Assembly: GCA_913009315.1 (NCBI GenBank)
Contig: CAJVZA010000070.1
Coordinates: forward strand, 1-8,135
From: an uncultured Hippea sp.
GTDB taxonomy: Bacteria; Campylobacterota_A; Desulfurellia; JAADFJ01
Direction: 5' to 3'
Length of the DNA stretch: 8,135 nucleotides
Under the pieces are notes generated by a model. That model did no database searches. It was not told where the DNA came from and saw nothing but the letters and a program-made list of their open reading frames with translations. Shown one piece after another: positions 2,462-8,135 of the stretch; position 1 is the stretch's first letter; each line of letters begins with the position of its first letter. Made by a program: the position numbers and the translations under genes.

Positions 2462-2737
2462 TCACCTAATCAATCTTTTAAGTTTCTTATAAAAGTTTTC
2501 ATGACTGCCGATTACATAGAGGTAGAGAACATCTTCTTTGCATTCATAGGAAATGAGGAAAAGATGAGAGTTGAATGTAAATTTGTAAACCCTTATACCT
2601 TTTAAATCCTCTTTTTTAAGCACGCCTATATTGGGATTTTCCAATATCTTTTGTACCTGATTATCTATTTCAAGCTGTAATCTCGGAGGAAATTTCTTTT
2701 TAAATTTTAGAAAACGATTTGAGGCAATTAACCTCAA
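2462..2737 (-). CDS. RelE/ParE-family toxin
   Basis: This 91-residue basic protein has the RelE-like order: an N-terminal strand (MRLIASNRFLKF), a long helix (KKFPPRLQLEIDNQVQKIL, 14-32), NPNIGVLKKEDLKGIRVYKF (34-53) where RelE/StbE toxins have 'L.G.rvyrf', the strand HLFLISYEC, and VLYLYVIGSHENFYKKLKR at the end (70-88). The closing GSHENFYKKLKR is characteristic of the ribosome-dependent mRNA-cleaving RelE/StbE branch, with a His-Glu..Tyr cluster. The start codon is TTG (2735-2737), overlapping the antitoxin TGA as TTGA, and no better start exists. It is translated second in the operon, by coupling. The exact subfamily is uncertain. Confidence 0.85.
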   Translation of the reverse strand: MRLIASNRFLKFKKKFPPRLQLEIDNQVQKILENPNIGVLKKEDLKGIRVYKFTFNSHLFLISYECKEDVLYLYVIGSHENFYKKLKRLIR

Positions 2738-2967
2738 TGAATAATTCCAAATTCATATTCCTTTCCAATTCCCGCCTCGATCTCTTTTTTTGCCTCAAGC
2801 GTCTTTTTTACAAATGAGAGAGGAAGATCGGGATATTCTTCAGATAACATTCCATCTGTTATATATTTTTTGATTTGCTCCGAGATACTTCTATGTTCCA
2901 TATTTGCCTTTATCTTGATTTTTGTCTCAATCTCATCAGGCAATCTCACGGTTGATACCCCCTTCAT
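2734..2967 (-). CDS. ribbon-helix-helix antitoxin of RelE-type pair
   Basis: The product (77 residues) begins with a ribbon-helix-helix DNA-binding domain: the strand STVRLPDEIE (5-14), helix IETKIKIKANMEH (13-25) and helix SISEQIKKYITDGM (27-40). A charged C-terminal tail (SFVKKTLEAKKEIEAGIGKEYEF, from 51 on) would wrap the toxin. The ATG at 2965-2967 is chosen because a perfect AGGAGGT lies 6-7 nt upstream (about 2972-2978). An upstream start at 3024 would cross the promoter. The antitoxin presumably binds the imperfect inverted repeat around its own promoter. It is TacA/ParD-like in layout, but I cannot name a subfamily. Confidence 0.85.
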   Translation of the reverse strand: MKGVSTVRLPDEIETKIKIKANMEHRSISEQIKKYITDGMLSEEYPDLPLSFVKKTLEAKKEIEAGIGKEYEFGIIH

Positions 2968-2996
2968 TTTTAACCTCCTGTGTTTGTTACAAATAC

Positions 2997-3024
2997 ATAT
3001 TACGCAATATTCGTTATTTGTCAA
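2997..3024 (-). promoter_or_regulatory. promoter and likely operator of RHH-RelE module
   Basis: On the minus strand a perfect TTGACA (3019-3024) stands 16 nt from TAATAT (2997-3002), giving a start about 25 nt before the antitoxin ATG. An imperfect inverted repeat flanks the promoter, gtttgttacaaata (about 2982-2995) against ttatttgtcaaac (3014-3026). Its halves share acaaata/tatttgt, so a dimeric or tetrameric antitoxin bound there would cover both boxes. This is the expected site for autorepression. Confidence 0.7.
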
Positions 3025-3456: not shown

Positions 3457-3738
3457 ATGATAAAAAGTTTCTCGAGTAAGGAAACTGAAAAATTCTTTAA
3501 CCGTCAGTTTTCTCGAAAAATATCACCAAGTATTCATCAAATTGCTCGACGAAAACTTGAAATGCTTGATGCTGCAGGAGCGCTTCAGGATTTACGAATA
3601 CCACCATCGAACCGTTTGGAGAAGCTATCCGGAGATAGAAAAGGCCGATATAGCATCCGCATTAATGTACGTTGGCGCATCTGCTTTGAATGGCCGGACA
3701 ACGATGTTTACAACGTAGAAATTGTTGACTATCATTAG
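3457..3738 (+). CDS. higB: HigB-family toxin (RelE fold)
   Basis: HigB is a ribosome-dependent mRNA endonuclease of the RelE superfamily. The 93-residue protein is canonical throughout: [14 protein letters not shown] at the start, [16 protein letters not shown] (42-57), [12 protein letters not shown] (59-70), VRWRICFEW (71-79) and the closing VEIVDYH (87-93). The ATG at 3457 gives the standard family length. No Shine-Dalgarno sequence precedes it, and the promoter at 3420-3448 places the transcript start at or within two or three bases of the ATG, so the mRNA is probably leaderless. The antitoxin gene follows after 8 nt, in the toxin-first order usual for hig. Confidence 0.95.
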
Positions 3739-3746
3739 GAGATATT

Positions 3747-4049
3747 ATGACTAAACAAAAATTATTACCAATTCATCCGGGCGAGATTCTGATGGAGGAA
3801 TTTCTCAAACCCATGGGGATTAGTCAGTACAGGTTAGCTAAGGATATTAATGTACCCGCTCGCAGGATTAATGAAATTGTGCACGGGAAGCGGGCAATCA
3901 CACCGGATACTGCTTTGAGGCTGTCACGTTATTTTGAAATGTCAGAAAGATTTTGGATCAATCTTCAAGCAAGACATGACCTGGAAGTGATAAAAGACAA
4001 GTTGAAGGATCGCATAGACAAAGAAGTTAATGTATATGCTGTTGGGTAA
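3747..4049 (+). CDS. higA: HigA-family antitoxin, XRE-type helix-turn-helix
   Basis: The 100-residue protein opens with the family signature IHPGEILMEEFLKPMGISQYRLA (9-31). It continues with a helix-turn-helix (about 24-47, including INVPARRINEIVHGKRAIT), then the helix TALRLSRYFEMSERFWINLQARHDLE (55-80). This is the HigA/VapI group of XRE regulators. It neutralises HigB and should repress the operon through the inverted repeats over the higB promoter. The ATG has a good aggag ribosome site (3737-3741), unlike higB, so antitoxin synthesis should be favoured. Confidence 0.95.
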   Translation: MTKQKLLPIHPGEILMEEFLKPMGISQYRLAKDINVPARRINEIVHGKRAITPDTALRLSRYFEMSERFWINLQARHDLEVIKDKLKDRIDKEVNVYAVG

Positions 4050-4313: not shown

Positions 4314-5081
4314 ATGAGGATTCTCGTTTATCTTATTTCGGACAGTCATATAACAATAAAGCAAAGCTACAACAATATTCTTCAGGGATTGATATATCAG
4401 TTTTTAGACCGGATCGATGCAGCGTGGCTTCATAAAAATGGCTTTGAATCCGGCAGCAGAAAATTTAAGCTTTTTGTTTTCTCGGGAATCAGGGAAAGAG
4501 GAGCAGTCGATCGAAAAACCCAAACCTTCAAATTTTCCAATAAAATAAGTTTTTATCTGTCATCTCCGGTCGATTGGATTATGACTCAATTTGCAGGCAA
4601 TATTATTCGATCAAGAAATTTTAATTTCGGCGGTAATACGGTTTCGGTCGAATCGATCAGTGTCATGAAAGATCAGGCGATAGATAACGACTCAATAATC
4701 GTCCGGGCACTAACTCCCATTGAAGTACATTCAACTTTGATAAAACCTGACGGGAAAAAACTGACCTATTACTATAGTCCGCTTGAGAATGAATTCGGCA
4801 GACTCATAAATGATAATCTGATGAAAAAGTGGCAGGCGTTTTACAAAAAAGATGCTCCGGGCGATATTTTGATAAAACCGCTTTTTTCAGGCGGCAGAAA
4901 TGAACGAATCAGATATTTTGTCAATGGCGACAGAAAAACCGTTATAAAAGGATGGGTCGGAAAATATGAGCTTTCAGGAAGTATGGAGCTGCTCAAATTT
5001 GCGCTTGATGTGGGGCTGGGAAGTCGAGGCAGCCAAGGCTTCGGCATGATAGAGATGGCAGCCAATTGGAGAAATCAATGA
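4314..5081 (+). CDS. cas6: CRISPR endoribonuclease Cas6
   Basis: Cas6 cuts the CRISPR repeat in precursor RNA to release crRNAs for Cascade-type complexes. The 255-residue protein matches the family in length and landmarks: an N-terminal strand (MRILVYLIS), YNNILQGLIYQFL (19-31), WLHKNGF (38-44) with H40 in the place of the family's catalytic histidine, FKLFVFSGI (51-59), a 'VRALTPIEV' strand about 129-137, and the C-terminal glycine-rich RNA-binding loop GLGSRGSQGFGMIE (about 234-247). The ATG follows a run of seven G residues (4305-4311). The TGA overlaps the next gene's ATG (ATGA). The gene seems intact. No array or other intact cas gene is in view. The C-terminal third is repeated at 7921-8091. 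Confidence 0.93.
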   Translation: MRILVYLISDSHITIKQSYNNILQGLIYQFLDRIDAAWLHKNGFESGSRKFKLFVFSGIRERGAVDRKTQTFKFSNKISFYLSSPVDWIMTQFAGNIIRSRNFNFGGNTVSVESISVMKDQAIDNDSIIVRALTPIEVHSTLIKPDGKKLTYYYSPLENEFGRLINDNLMKKWQAFYKKDAPGDILIKPLFSGGRNERIRYFVNGDRKTVIKGWVGKYELSGSMELLKFALDVGLGSRGSQGFGMIEMAANWRNQ

Positions 5082-5125
5082 ATATTAAAATTACACCGAA
5101 AATCATCAAATCCATATGCAATAAG
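4911..5125 (+). repeat. cas6-tail/SWIM-head direct repeat, copy 1
   Basis: This segment matches 7921-8135 without gaps at a constant offset of 3010 bases. By my count about 15 of 215 positions differ (about 93% identity). The match starts sharply at cas6 codon 200 and is still running at the window edge, so the true repeat is longer. Half of the differences fall in the glycine-rich loop (SRGSQG versus SRNSAG). Confidence 0.9.
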
Positions 5126-6715
5126 GTAGTGATATCGAGAGGCAAGAAGATTATCAATACTTATCTTGTTGAAAATATAACAAATTTCAGCGTTGACGAC
5201 AACACAATAAGCGCCTCGATTGACGATATTCTCAACTTTGACGTAAAAATGGATTTATCGGACATGAGCTGCAGCTGCTCATGCAATTACAGCAAAGTCG
5301 GGATATGCAAGCACATAGCGGCACTGCTTTATTTTGCTATGGAGAAGGGAACAAATTTTAAAGGTTCGGAAAAGCAGGATAGTTCTCTCGACGAATTAAA
5401 ATCCGCTATAAACAGTGCGGATAAAGCTCGTCTGGAGCTGTTCATTATCAATGAAACAGCCATAGATGAGGATATCCGAAATAGAGCGCTGAACTTTTTT
5501 ATGGCAAAAAAGCACAAACGTACAGTCGCTGTTTATAAAAAAGAGATGAACAGCCTTTTGAAACACCTCATACGCGACTATTATATACCCGTATCGAAAT
5601 CAGGCGAATTGACAGCCTTCATTAACAACATTGAACTGATGGCAAAGCAAGGCGACATCGAAGAAGCAATCAAAAATTACAGGGCTGTTTTTGAGGTTTT
5701 GGAAAACAAATTGAGAACGCTTGATGATTCTTACGGAATTATTCAGGATGCGATTAGGGATGCGTTGGATAAATATATTGAGTATTCCGACAAATTTTAT
5801 ACAGAGCAAAAGGATAGACGCGGCATAATTGAATATCTGTGGAAACAATTTCTGAAAAATTCCGATATATGCCATTACTACACCGAGGCGATAAAGCAGT
5901 TCTGCGGAAGTGAAGAAGACTGGAAGTGCTACCGTGACATCATTGCAAAAGAAATCTCATCGCGAGACGACAAAGATAGTTTTATGTTCCAAACAATCGT
6001 AGAAGAATATATCGATATACTTATTCAACTGAAAAATGATGATGAATTGAAAAAGGCGTTTGATGAATTCTTAAGTTTAAACGGCTCCATCGCTCATAAA
6101 AAGATCGATTATTTTTGGTCAATCGGCAAATTTGAGGATGCCATCAAGACATTTGAGGACAACATCAACCGCCTGCATTATGAAGATGTCGAACAAATCA
6201 GAACCAAAATATCCGATTATCTCTACAAAAATAACAAAGGGAGACACCTAAACAATCTTATCGCCCTGTTTAAGCTTTCGCCCTCATACGATCTGTATGA
6301 ACAGATTGAAAAAAGCAGCGGAGATTTTTGGGTGAATATCAGGGACAAACTGTATGAGCAAATCAAAAACTCCCCTGAACTCATTGATTCATTTATAAAA
6401 AAAGGGCGAATGAGAGAAGCGTTTGATAAATTAGCGGAGATTGACAAAACCAATCTGTATGACAAATATCTTGAAATTTTGTCGCCGCTATTTCCTGAAG
6501 AGTATTTTGATTACTACAAAAATTCGATAATGAGGGATTACAAAAGTGCTCAGTATCCCGACCGTAATCTATACCGCACAACATTAAGAAAAATCATAAA
6601 TCTCAGTATAATCGTCGGAGCAGAAGATAAATATGCCGAATTTTTGGTGCAGCTTAGAGAAGAAAATAAGCAGCGGCCTTCGTTTTTAGATGAGATGGGG
6701 AAGATTTTAGAATGA
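5078..6715 (+). CDS. SWIM zinc-finger protein coupled to Cas6
   Basis: The product is a 545-residue protein of the SWIM zinc-finger family. The SWIM motif CxCx(n)CxH is visible as C65-S-C67-S-C69 ... C77-K-H79, followed by the usual helix IAALLYFAMEKG. SWIM domains bind nucleic acid or protein partners. The remaining 450 residues are helix-rich and charged, with TPR/HEAT-like helical pairs. The end, AEFLVQLREENKQRPSFLDEM (about 519-539), resembles the closing segment of other long SWIM proteins. No nuclease or ATPase motif is seen. The start is the ATG at 5078, in an ATGA overlap with cas6 and preceded by GGAGAA (5068-5073); a TTG four codons upstream lies on that ribosome site. Coupling to cas6 suggests a role in crRNA processing, complex assembly or regulation, which is inference. 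Confidence 0.88.
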   Translation: MNIKITPKIIKSICNKVVISRGKKIINTYLVENITNFSVDDNTISASIDDILNFDVKMDLSDMSCSCSCNYSKVGICKHIAALLYFAMEKGTNFKGSEKQDSSLDELKSAINSADKARLELFIINETAIDEDIRNRALNFFMAKKHKRTVAVYKKEMNSLLKHLIRDYYIPVSKSGELTAFINNIELMAKQGDIEEAIKNYRAVFEVLENKLRTLDDSYGIIQDAIRDALDKYIEYSDKFYTEQKDRRGIIEYLWKQFLKNSDICHYYTEAIKQFCGSEEDWKCYRDIIAKEISSRDDKDSFMFQTIVEEYIDILIQLKNDDELKKAFDEFLSLNGSIAHKKIDYFWSIGKFEDAIKTFEDNINRLHYEDVEQIRTKISDYLYKNNKGRHLNNLIALFKLSPSYDLYEQIEKSSGDFWVNIRDKLYEQIKNSPELIDSFIKKGRMREAFDKLAEIDKTNLYDKYLEILSPLFPEEYFDYYKNSIMRDYKSAQYPDRNLYRTTLRKIINLSIIVGAEDKYAEFLVQLREENKQRPSFLDEMGKILE

Positions 6716-6748
6716 GCTGAGATATTAGAGCGATTTTGAGGGGGCATT

Positions 6749-6856
6749 ATGATTGAAGCGTTACATGAGATAGGTTCACAGCACTATTTTACTTTAACAG
6801 GAAATCCATTTGTGCATGGAGGTATGAAGAGTTATTTAACATTTTTAAAAAAATGA
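6749..6856 (+). pseudogene. remnant of Cas8-type large subunit, N-terminal piece
   Basis: A strong ribosome site (GAGGGGG, 6738-6744) leads to ATG 6749 and a 35-residue ORF beginning MIEALHEIG. This is how the TM1802/Csh1 (Cas8b) large subunits start, and it is close to the MIEALLDI start at 7663. It continues with FTLTGNPFVHGGMKSYLTFL (14-33), whose GNPFVxxG is the signature found near the start of Cst1-type Cas8 proteins, then stops at TGA (6854-6856). Full Cas8 proteins have 400-700 residues, so this is a fragment or a join of two. The position, 33 nt after the SWIM gene, suggests the operon once continued cas6-SWIM-cas8. Confidence 0.5.
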
Positions 6857-7071
6857 CCGGTTTTAAGCTTTATGGAGCTCAAGAAAGATTGTCCAAAATA
6901 TATTCAGAGGGGAATAATATGTTGTTGAAAGCTCTAAGCGGGGCAGGGAAAATCCGAGCCTTTGTTCTCCCTTTTGTTTTTTTGATGAAGCAGAGAATTT
7001 TAGGAAAAGAGGTCGATATGAATTTGCATGCAAATTTTTTGAAAAATCTACTCAAAAATTACAAAAATTGA
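6853..7071 (+). pseudogene. unrecognised 72-residue ORF, possible cas8 remnant
   Basis: This ORF starts at an ATGA overlapping the stop of the preceding remnant and encodes a basic protein with GAQERLSKIYSEGNNMLLKAL (8-28), a hydrophobic FVLPFVFLM segment and a helix ending NFLKNLLKNYKN. I do not recognise a family. The pattern of helix, LLKAL and a C-terminal Lys/Asn-rich helix could come from the C-terminal helical part of a Cas8 protein left by internal deletion. Only the position next to the MIEAL fragment supports this. It may also be non-coding. Confidence 0.25.
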
Positions 7072-7141: not shown

Positions 7142-7348
7142 ATGGAACGACGCTTTACACTTGAATATTGGATAGATGAAGGATGGTATGTTGGCAGGCT
7201 AAAAGAAGTGCCGGGGGTATTCAGCCAGGGAGAAACGATTGAGGAATTAGAAGAGAATATAAAGGAAGCCTACCATCTTATTATGGCCGAAGAAGAAATT
7301 TCGCCACCCCATAAGGCTTACCGGAAAGAGTTGGAAATACAGGTGTGA
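7142..7348 (+). CDS. hicB: HicB-family antitoxin (second hic module)
   Basis: This 68-residue protein is a short HicB: RFTLEYWIDEGWYVGRLKE (4-22), VPGVFSQGETIEELEENIKEAYHLIMAEEE (23-52). It is only distantly similar to the copy at 1347-1568: both share a 'GxYVGxxxxxPG' strand and a 'QxETxxELxxNxKE' helix. The ATG has a perfect AGGAGG at 7129-7134. The stop TGA overlaps the GTG start of the toxin gene. It lies between cas8-like remnants, so the module appears to have been inserted into, or retained within, the cas operon. Confidence 0.9.
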   Translation: MERRFTLEYWIDEGWYVGRLKEVPGVFSQGETIEELEENIKEAYHLIMAEEEISPPHKAYRKELEIQV

Positions 7349-7524
7349 AAAGGAAAGAATTTATCCGAGAGTTAATAAAAGCAGGTTGTTATATAAAACG
7401 GCATGGAACAAACCATGACATATATATGAATCCAAGAACCGGTAGAAAAGCTCCTATTCCAAGACATACAGAGGTTAAAGAAAGTCTTTGTGAATTGATA
7501 AGAAAACAGTTAGGATTGAAATAA
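7345..7524 (+). CDS. hicA: HicA-family toxin (second hic module), 59 residues
   Basis: The product is a compact HicA: helix KRKEFIRELIKAG (2-14), then CYIKRHGTNHDIYMNP (15-30) with H24 in the place of the GSH catalytic histidine, the APIPRH strand (36-41) and the helix VKESLCELIRKQLGL. The GTG start (7345-7347) overlaps the hicB stop as GTGA, and no ATG is available until M28. This is the same coupled, weak-start design as the first hicA. It is shorter than the first copy (77 residues) but has all the family's core elements. It is of the 'NHDIY..P.TG...PIPRH' subtype common in other bacteria. Confidence 0.88.
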   Translation: MKRKEFIRELIKAGCYIKRHGTNHDIYMNPRTGRKAPIPRHTEVKESLCELIRKQLGLK

Positions 7525-7662
7525 ACGTGTCTATTTATCGCAAGTTGCTACGTTAGATTTGTTGCCATTTTTAAGTGGGAATAAGGATTTTAATTGATGA
7601 ATTGCGCAGATTTATTGATTGTGGTTGGGATAATATTGAGTGACAAGATTCAAGGGGGAATT

Positions 7663-8091
7663 ATGATTGAGGCATTACTTGATATAAGAGATATCCAACA
7701 GAAAAACGACTTTCTTGATGAATTTGCTGAAAATATTGGAGAGAAAAATAGACATGTATTGAAGATTAATTTTGATATTAATGATAAAGATAATGTCTCC
7801 TATTCCGGCGTTGGATATGAAGAATTTTCTCAACCCAAAAAGCTAAAATATCTTTATAAAGGCGTAAAGGGAAACGAATCCAACTATACTCCCATAGCCA
7901 AGATAACCTATGATATCAAAAGATATTTTGTCAATGGCGACAGAAAAACCGTTATAAAAGGATGGGTCGGAAAATACGAGCTTTCAGGAAGTATGGAGCT
8001 GCTCAAATTTGCGCTTGATGTCGGGCTCGGAAGTCGAAACAGCGCTGGTTTCGGAATGATAGAGATGGCGGCTAATCGGAGAAATCAATGA
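7663..8091 (+). pseudogene. in-frame chimera: Cas8b/Csh1 N-terminus joined to Cas6 C-terminus
   Basis: ATG 7663 follows AAGGGGG (7650-7656) and opens a 142-residue ORF. Residues 1-86 resemble the N-terminus of TM1802/Csh1-type Cas8b: MIEALLDI, VLKINFDI (32-39), YSGVGYEEF (47-55), LKYLYKGVKG (61-70) and YTPIAKIT (75-82), where the family has 'YLY..g...TD.TP.akIT'. From R87 (7921) onward the DNA and protein match Cas6 codon 200 to the end, including GLGSRNSAGFGMIE. The Cas6 part lacks the N-terminal fold and H40, so it cannot be a normal nuclease. A deletion from the middle of cas8b to late cas6, in frame, explains it. An upstream in-frame ATG at 7594 lacks a good site. The ORF is still coupled by ATGA to the next SWIM gene. 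Confidence 0.75.
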
Positions 8092-8135
8092 ATATTAAGA
8101 TCACACCGAAAATCATCAAATCCATATGCAATAAG
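7921..8135 (+). repeat. cas6-tail/SWIM-head direct repeat, copy 2
   Basis: This copy matches 4911-5125 with about 15 mismatches and no gaps, ending only because the window ends. Many differences are synonymous or confined to the glycine-rich loop. It includes the intact GGAGAA ribosome site and the ATGA coupling. Confidence 0.9.
8088..8135 (+). CDS. second SWIM zinc-finger protein (5' end only)
   Basis: The 16 codons before the window edge encode the same residues as the start of the first SWIM protein (MNIKITPKIIKSICNK) with two silent base changes. The ATG overlaps the stop of the Cas8b-Cas6 chimera, and GGAGAA lies upstream as in copy 1. Whether the gene is full length cannot be seen. The zinc-finger motif would begin about 145 bases beyond the window. 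Confidence 0.8.
   Translation, partial: MNIKITPKIIKSICNK

Follow-up and report, generated by a model that had tools for sequence, protein, structure and literature searches.

An intact cas6 gene overlaps a gene for a SWIM zinc-finger protein

The window analysed here is a stretch of 8135 bp that makes up the whole of contig C70 in a draft genome of 1.74 Mb (96 contigs, 88% complete). At positions 4314..5081 of its forward (+) strand lies an intact cas6 gene encoding a Cas6b of 255 aa, as the initial annotation had proposed. The protein passes the curated cut-off of TIGR01877 (9.6e-35, 120.8 bits against 58.65) and also matches PF01881 (2.2e-34) and the PADLOC Cas6b profile (2.2e-68). It is basic in charge and carries an LH..GF motif, whose His40 we take to be the catalytic histidine of Cas6, as well as a C-terminal glycine-rich loop (GLGSRGSQGFG). 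His40 and the motif GLGSRxSQGFGMI are common to this protein and the Cas6 of a second species of the same genus (genome G002).

The cas6 gene runs into a gene on the same strand for a 545-aa protein that combines a SWIM zinc finger with an alpha-solenoid (5078..6715, +), recognised from PF04434, alignment to a relative in Tectomicrobia and an AlphaFold model. Its start is the ATG at 5078; the mechanically called open reading frame (ORF) begins earlier, with a TTG at 5066. This ATG overlaps the Cas6 stop codon as ATGA (5078..5081, +), just as initially described, and a Shine-Dalgarno-like GGAG lies 6 nt upstream (5068..5071, +). ATGA overlaps are in themselves common in operons. The arrangement here likely couples translation of Cas6 and the SWIM protein. 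The zinc finger (5243..5332, +) exceeds the PF04434 cut-off (6.6e-5, 22.8 bits against 19.6), and the four ligands of its motif, C67-x-C69-x7-C77-K-H79, are unchanged in an alignment of 53 homologues. The initial annotation had named the same four residues and suggested C65 as a possible further ligand. Since a tyrosine replaces C65 in the same-genus homologue, its nearest relative, C65 is not a ligand.

A partial second copy of the junction lies at the end of the contig, where 7921-8135 is a 93% copy of 4911-5125 (repeat D1). It reaches into a chimeric ORF (7663..8091, +) in which residues 1 to ~85 of Cas8b/TM1802 are joined in frame to the final ~70-75 residues of Cas6, as seen with PF09484 (8e-14, aa 1-89), PF01881 (6e-16, aa 60-135) and the PADLOC Cas8b and Cas6 profiles. 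The N-terminal half of Cas6, including His40, is missing from the chimera, which to judge by its sequence is not a functional Cas6. The same ATGA then opens a second, diverged SWIM copy (8088..8135, +, from repeat D1), which is ended by the contig edge. The two copies differ at 15 positions and, because these are chiefly third codon positions, the copy at 7921-8135 probably derives from a second, diverged cas6-SWIM unit whose front was lost later. The recurrence at 8088 had initially been taken to support the pairing. The ATGA is indeed present there, but it belongs to a Cas8b-Cas6 chimera inside a diverged duplication and is not independent support, so we dropped it as evidence for coupling.

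Downstream of the complete SWIM gene, a segment at 6739..6772 (+, repeat D6) is 85% like the start of cas8b at 7653-7686 and is a possible, unconfirmed remnant of a cas8b start, a reading that rests on 34 nt. A family profile search gave no convincing match for the short broken ORFs 3' of the SWIM gene (6749-7071).

The rest of the window holds five toxin-antitoxin-like pairs in 8 kb. The HigB-HTH pair at 3457-4049 was confirmed with Pfam, the pair at 7142-7524 consists of a UPF0150/HicB-like gene and a weak HicA-like neighbour, and those at 424-952, 1117-1628 and 2462-3024 were called by eye only. Two copies of an element of ~240-260 bp (156-416 and 1669-1907; 86-94% in pieces D2-D4) flank the toxin-antitoxin-rich stretch, and this is possibly a mobile or repeated element. 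Inverted repeats of 24 nt (I1, 83%; span 1869-2327) enclose a ThiS-family ORF at 1905-2198, and the whole may be a small mobile unit.

The pair stands in an apparently depleted CRISPR setting

A genome-wide search found a single Cas8b in the window's genome, namely the chimeric fragment, which covers 96 of 602 model positions. An intact cas8b with cas7, cas5 and cas3 would mark a type I-B system, and of Cas8b only this fragment was found. Neither Cas1 nor RAMP proteins were detected in the assembly, which is incomplete, so other cas genes may be missing from it. A degenerate mini-array, comprising two repeats plus a third that is truncated, lies on another contig of the same genome (C33; L216:1394-1479), apparently with no cas genes beside it, and its repeats end in CTATGAGGAATTGAAAC.

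The same repeat end, CTATGAGGAATTGAAAC, occurs in G002, in the array of a Cmr (III-B) locus with Csx1, cas1 and cas2. G002 further carries a cas4-cas1 locus, and it gave no match to PF09484 (Cas8b). Because the repeat end of the mini-array matches that of the III-B array in G002, and Cas8b is only fragmentary, we infer that Cas6b and the SWIM protein may serve type III arrays in trans. The type I-B attribution given initially is weak on the same grounds: the window's genome offers only a chimeric Cas8b, and G002 gave no PF09484 match but has a III-B locus. As a separate observation, G002 also has an RT-Cas1 and Cas2 locus beside a CARF-PDDEXK nuclease, together with the Cmr III-B genes and Csx1 (L203:276-3762 and L202).

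The cas6-SWIM arrangement has arisen more than once

The pair is kept in G002, where Cas6 is 76% and the SWIM protein 77% identical to those of the window, and where the two genes overlap through the same ATGA. Comparison of the two genomes gave dN/dS values of 0.11 for cas6 and 0.20 for the SWIM gene; both are under purifying selection between the two species. Along the SWIM gene (window 5078-6712 against L005:12-1625), synonymous divergence is 1.4 over residues 1-110 and then about 0.4-0.6, a drop that suggests recombination within the gene.

Searching 386 genomes with a SWIM profile identified a further pair in a Tectomicrobia genome (L099), in the order cas1-cas2-array-cas6-SWIM, with an array of at least seven repeats and again an ATGA overlap between cas6 and the SWIM gene. 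The Cas6 of this locus belongs to a different subfamily (PF10040) and shows no BLASTP similarity to that of the window. The two SWIM proteins align by BLASTP over their full length (19% identity, E 1e-9), and the Tectomicrobia protein matches PF21810 (DUF6880) at 7.8e-16. A third association is found in Ignavibacteriales (L156), where a cas6 gene (PADLOC Cas6b, 4.6e-64) lies directly 5' of the SWIM gene across a 90-nt gap, with no overlap and no further cas gene nearby. In all three associations the SWIM gene stands behind cas6 on the same strand.

The well-supported branches of a maximum-likelihood tree require three changes of the label 'behind cas6'. Both extra-genus cases are surrounded by cas6-free relatives, and the tree thus shows that the SWIM family has joined cas6 on at least three separate occasions. 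The number of such neighbours outside the genus, two among 80 loci, compares with a rough expectation of ~0.01 per 80 loci, estimated on the assumption that Cas6 occurs in well under half of genomes of ~3000 genes each; clustering of defence genes might raise this ~10-fold. The claim of the initial annotation that the pairing is structural rather than accidental is thus supported by conservation within the genus and by recurrence in Tectomicrobia and Ignavibacteriales, but not by the repeat at 8088 on which it had drawn.

Most relatives of the SWIM protein lie away from cas6

The 80 loci are the nearest relatives outside the genus, drawn from 84,980 genomes; SWIM-DUF6880 relatives number ~415 in all. 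Homologues lying mostly away from cas6 had been put forward initially as one half of a refutation of the pairing, and this half is what was observed: two of the 80 lie directly behind cas6, and the other 78 have no detectable cas6 in front of them. Because the linked cases are so few, the SWIM family is not dedicated to CRISPR. Conversely, none of 28 Cas6b loci fetched from outside the genus has a SWIM gene; in those examined, what comes next after cas6 is cas8b or some other gene. When 116 proteins neighbouring SWIM relatives were scanned with PADLOC, no common cas partner emerged; the commonest groups were PbeA-like and SNF2/restriction helicase families, with at most four members each. Seven loci of haloarchaeal plasmid relatives were viewed, and none has cas neighbours. 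A SWIM-profile match behind cas6 in G273 was rejected as a Cas8b matched by chance through its helices, and a locus with type I-C cas genes ~2 kb behind the SWIM gene (L157) was left uncounted, having no adjacent cas6.

Among 53 SWIM relatives, 50 match the PADLOC family PDC-S62, a phage-defence candidate, and 48 match DUF6880. The PDCs were proposed by a guilt-by-embedding screen, and experimental tests are lacking for most of them (PMC12988326). The window protein itself matches neither PDC-S62 nor PF21810 (the latter at E 1), and it shares a very long branch of the tree with its same-genus homologue. As neither profile matches, we keep it outside both families; in sequence terms it is best described as a divergent relative of SWIM-DUF6880/PDC-S62. 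A whole-genome search with the protein matched G110 (E 3.1e-9); searches of the genome, viral and phage collections gave no matches, and a phylum-wide search (25 genomes) found nothing further.

The gene behind cas6 also varies within the class, one family having a RhuM/Fic-type gene there and another cas8b, with a RAMP gene in a further case. In a sister family (L084:8210-9189; L081:1-278), a RhuM/Fic-type gene overlaps the end of cas6, by 11 nt, and is followed in L084 by cas8b, which argues that the slot accepts unrelated cargo. Two other arrangements were observed among the relatives. At L018:7364-10603, a SWIM-DUF6880 relative lies directly behind a GHKL/HSP90-type ATPase gene without overlap, a candidate two-gene defence pair. 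In Acidobacteria (L148:4724-5662), a separate SWIM-finger gene overlaps a DUF6880-type relative downstream (5638 onward) whose match begins only at residue 103, so that the two are possibly a split version of the SWIM-solenoid protein.

The predicted structure joins a SWIM module to an alpha-solenoid

We modelled the SWIM protein with AlphaFold from an alignment of 53 relatives, leaving out the plasmid rows (mean pLDDT 86.9). In the model, residues 1-90 hold a pair of helices, a beta-sheet and the zinc finger, and the remainder, helical to the C-terminus, is predicted to form a TPR/HAT-like alpha-solenoid, in agreement with the long helical body foreseen in the initial annotation. Sequence searches for a solved homologue of the whole protein found none. 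Structural matches to the whole model are generic helical repeats, the solenoid resembling many unrelated repeat proteins, and we read no function from them.

The N-terminal 110 residues were also folded alone (mean pLDDT 79.2). This module has one clear match among solved structures, ZSWIM8 complexed with AGO2-miR-7-CYRANO (98 residues aligned at 3.2 A, Z 10.1; the runner-up fold has Z 5.2). Foldseek ranked ZSWIM8 first (E 0.019), and it was also matched by sequence profile (E 4e-4). The whole model compares with ZSWIM8 at Z 10.2, with an rmsd of 24.9 over 382 residues, values that unrelated solenoids often equal. ZSWIM8 forms a dimeric superdomain that is organised by its SWIM domain, and its alpha-solenoids act as a clamp on AGO2-miRNA (PMC13083262). 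A shared SWIM fold does not show a shared function. On average, members of the SWIM family carry a net charge close to neutral or acidic, and the window's Cas6b is basic, so a role in protein-protein contact seems likelier than bulk RNA binding.

Discussion

The likeliest mechanism in our judgement, though one that we advance tentatively, is that the SWIM protein works as an accessory adaptor in CRISPR, co-translated with Cas6 and acting on Cas6 or on Cas6-crRNA. The two proteins would be made together from the overlapping genes. The N-terminal SWIM module would serve as a structural organiser held together by zinc, possibly in dimerisation, and the alpha-solenoid as a protein-binding clamp docking on Cas6 or on Cas6 with its processed crRNA. 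The clamp would then either stabilise what it has bound or deliver the crRNA to an effector whose genes lie elsewhere, which in the window's genus would most likely be type III-B, in trans. Sequence comparison establishes the overlapping pair, its conservation, the purifying selection on it and the three cas6 associations. The SWIM and solenoid architecture is a structural prediction, and contact with Cas6, hand-over of crRNA and a type III client are the steps that we infer from these.

Several lines of evidence lead us to this reading. The pair and its ATGA are kept in G002 at low dN/dS, independent pairs occur in Tectomicrobia and Ignavibacteriales, and the tree requires its three label changes. 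The mini-array and the III-B array have a repeat end in common. Only the pair is intact where cas8b is broken and Cas1 and RAMP proteins were not found, and in Ignavibacteriales it stands with no other cas gene nearby. The likeness of the SWIM module to the ZSWIM8 fold and the charges of the SWIM protein and Cas6b point the same way. Against the adaptor stand the scarcity of cas6 among extra-genus homologues (2/80) and of SWIM genes at extra-genus Cas6b loci (0/28), the 90 nt between the Ignavibacteriales genes, the RhuM/Fic-type gene in the sister family's slot, the fact that likeness to ZSWIM8 is not functional proof, and a solenoid with no distinctive match.

A close rival, to which we give similarly tentative credence, is that the SWIM gene is a self-standing PDC-S62-like defence (or housekeeping) gene occupying a variable slot behind cas6, brought there repeatedly by the clustering of defence genes, with the overlap serving expression only and no interaction with Cas6. 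Most SWIM relatives do not adjoin cas genes, nearly all of those compared match PDC-S62, a candidate from a defence-gene screen, RhuM/Fic fills the same slot in the sister family, and one relative lies directly behind a GHKL ATPase gene. A gene of this kind sits less easily with three separate associations that all place it behind cas6 on the same strand, with two neighbours where roughly 0.01 were expected (or perhaps ten times that, allowing for clustering), and with a pair that alone is intact where the remaining locus is broken. That breakage could instead mean that cas6 and the SWIM gene are themselves functionless remnants of a decaying locus, as the chimeric cas8b-cas6 ORF and the absence of the other tested cas genes from the assembly might indicate. 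We think this unlikely, as both ORFs are full length, evolve between species at the low dN/dS given above and keep the catalytic motif, and the draft, at 88% completeness, could simply lack the other cas genes. Less probable still is a guard or effector pair in which the SWIM-solenoid protein watches Cas6 or crRNA and causes growth arrest once CRISPR is disabled. The solitary Cas6-SWIM pair of Ignavibacteriales and the decayed CRISPR locus of the window do resemble small guard modules, and several toxin-antitoxin-like genes surround the pair, but no catalytic or toxic domain was found in the protein, which gave only SWIM, DUF6880 or TPR-like matches.

Little is understood of how crRNA travels from a stand-alone Cas6 to type III effectors that are encoded at other loci, and a protein co-translated with Cas6 and repeatedly recruited to it is a concrete candidate for such delivery. 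The small size of the cas6-SWIM-array unit would allow it to be rebuilt in E. coli. If the protein is an adaptor, PDC-S62/DUF6880, a widespread candidate defence family, would gain its first molecular partner and would be tied structurally to a eukaryotic receptor of microRNA turnover, ZSWIM8. A bolder version, which by analogy with ZSWIM8 acting on AGO2 has the SWIM-solenoid protein clamp crRNA-loaded Cas6 and decide whether the guide is handed over, stored or destroyed, has in our view only a slim chance of being correct; if true, it would give CRISPR systems a quality-control step for guide RNA, which they are not known to have.

Comparison with known systems

In the literature searched, no Cas6-SWIM operon is described and no paper names DUF6880 or PDC-S62. 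In Altae-Tran et al. 2023 (PMC10910872), the legend to Fig. 6B names 'SWIM' as one of the genes newly associated with CRISPR adaptation modules. That entry, like our Tectomicrobia locus, is tied to adaptation genes. It appears as a legend mention, with neither Cas6 coupling nor function described in the main text, and is possibly of the same family as the window protein. With the type I-B operon (cas6-cas8b-cas7-cas5-cas3-cas4-cas1) the window has in common its Cas6b and the N-terminal fragment of Cas8b. It differs in what follows cas6, which is cas8b in the type I-B reference loci and the SWIM gene in the window, with no intact Cas8b (PF09484) genome-wide. The SWIM+DUF6880 proteins (PF04434 + PF21810; PDC-S62) share with the window protein a two-part layout, full-length homology and invariant SWIM ligands; most of them, however, are not linked to cas genes, and the window protein falls below both models on its very long branch. 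ZSWIM8 differs more widely, being a eukaryotic protein of 1866 aa with cullin-binding parts that acts as a receptor for AGO2-microRNA degradation, but it too has a SWIM module of similar fold followed by an alpha-solenoid, the layout predicted for the window protein.
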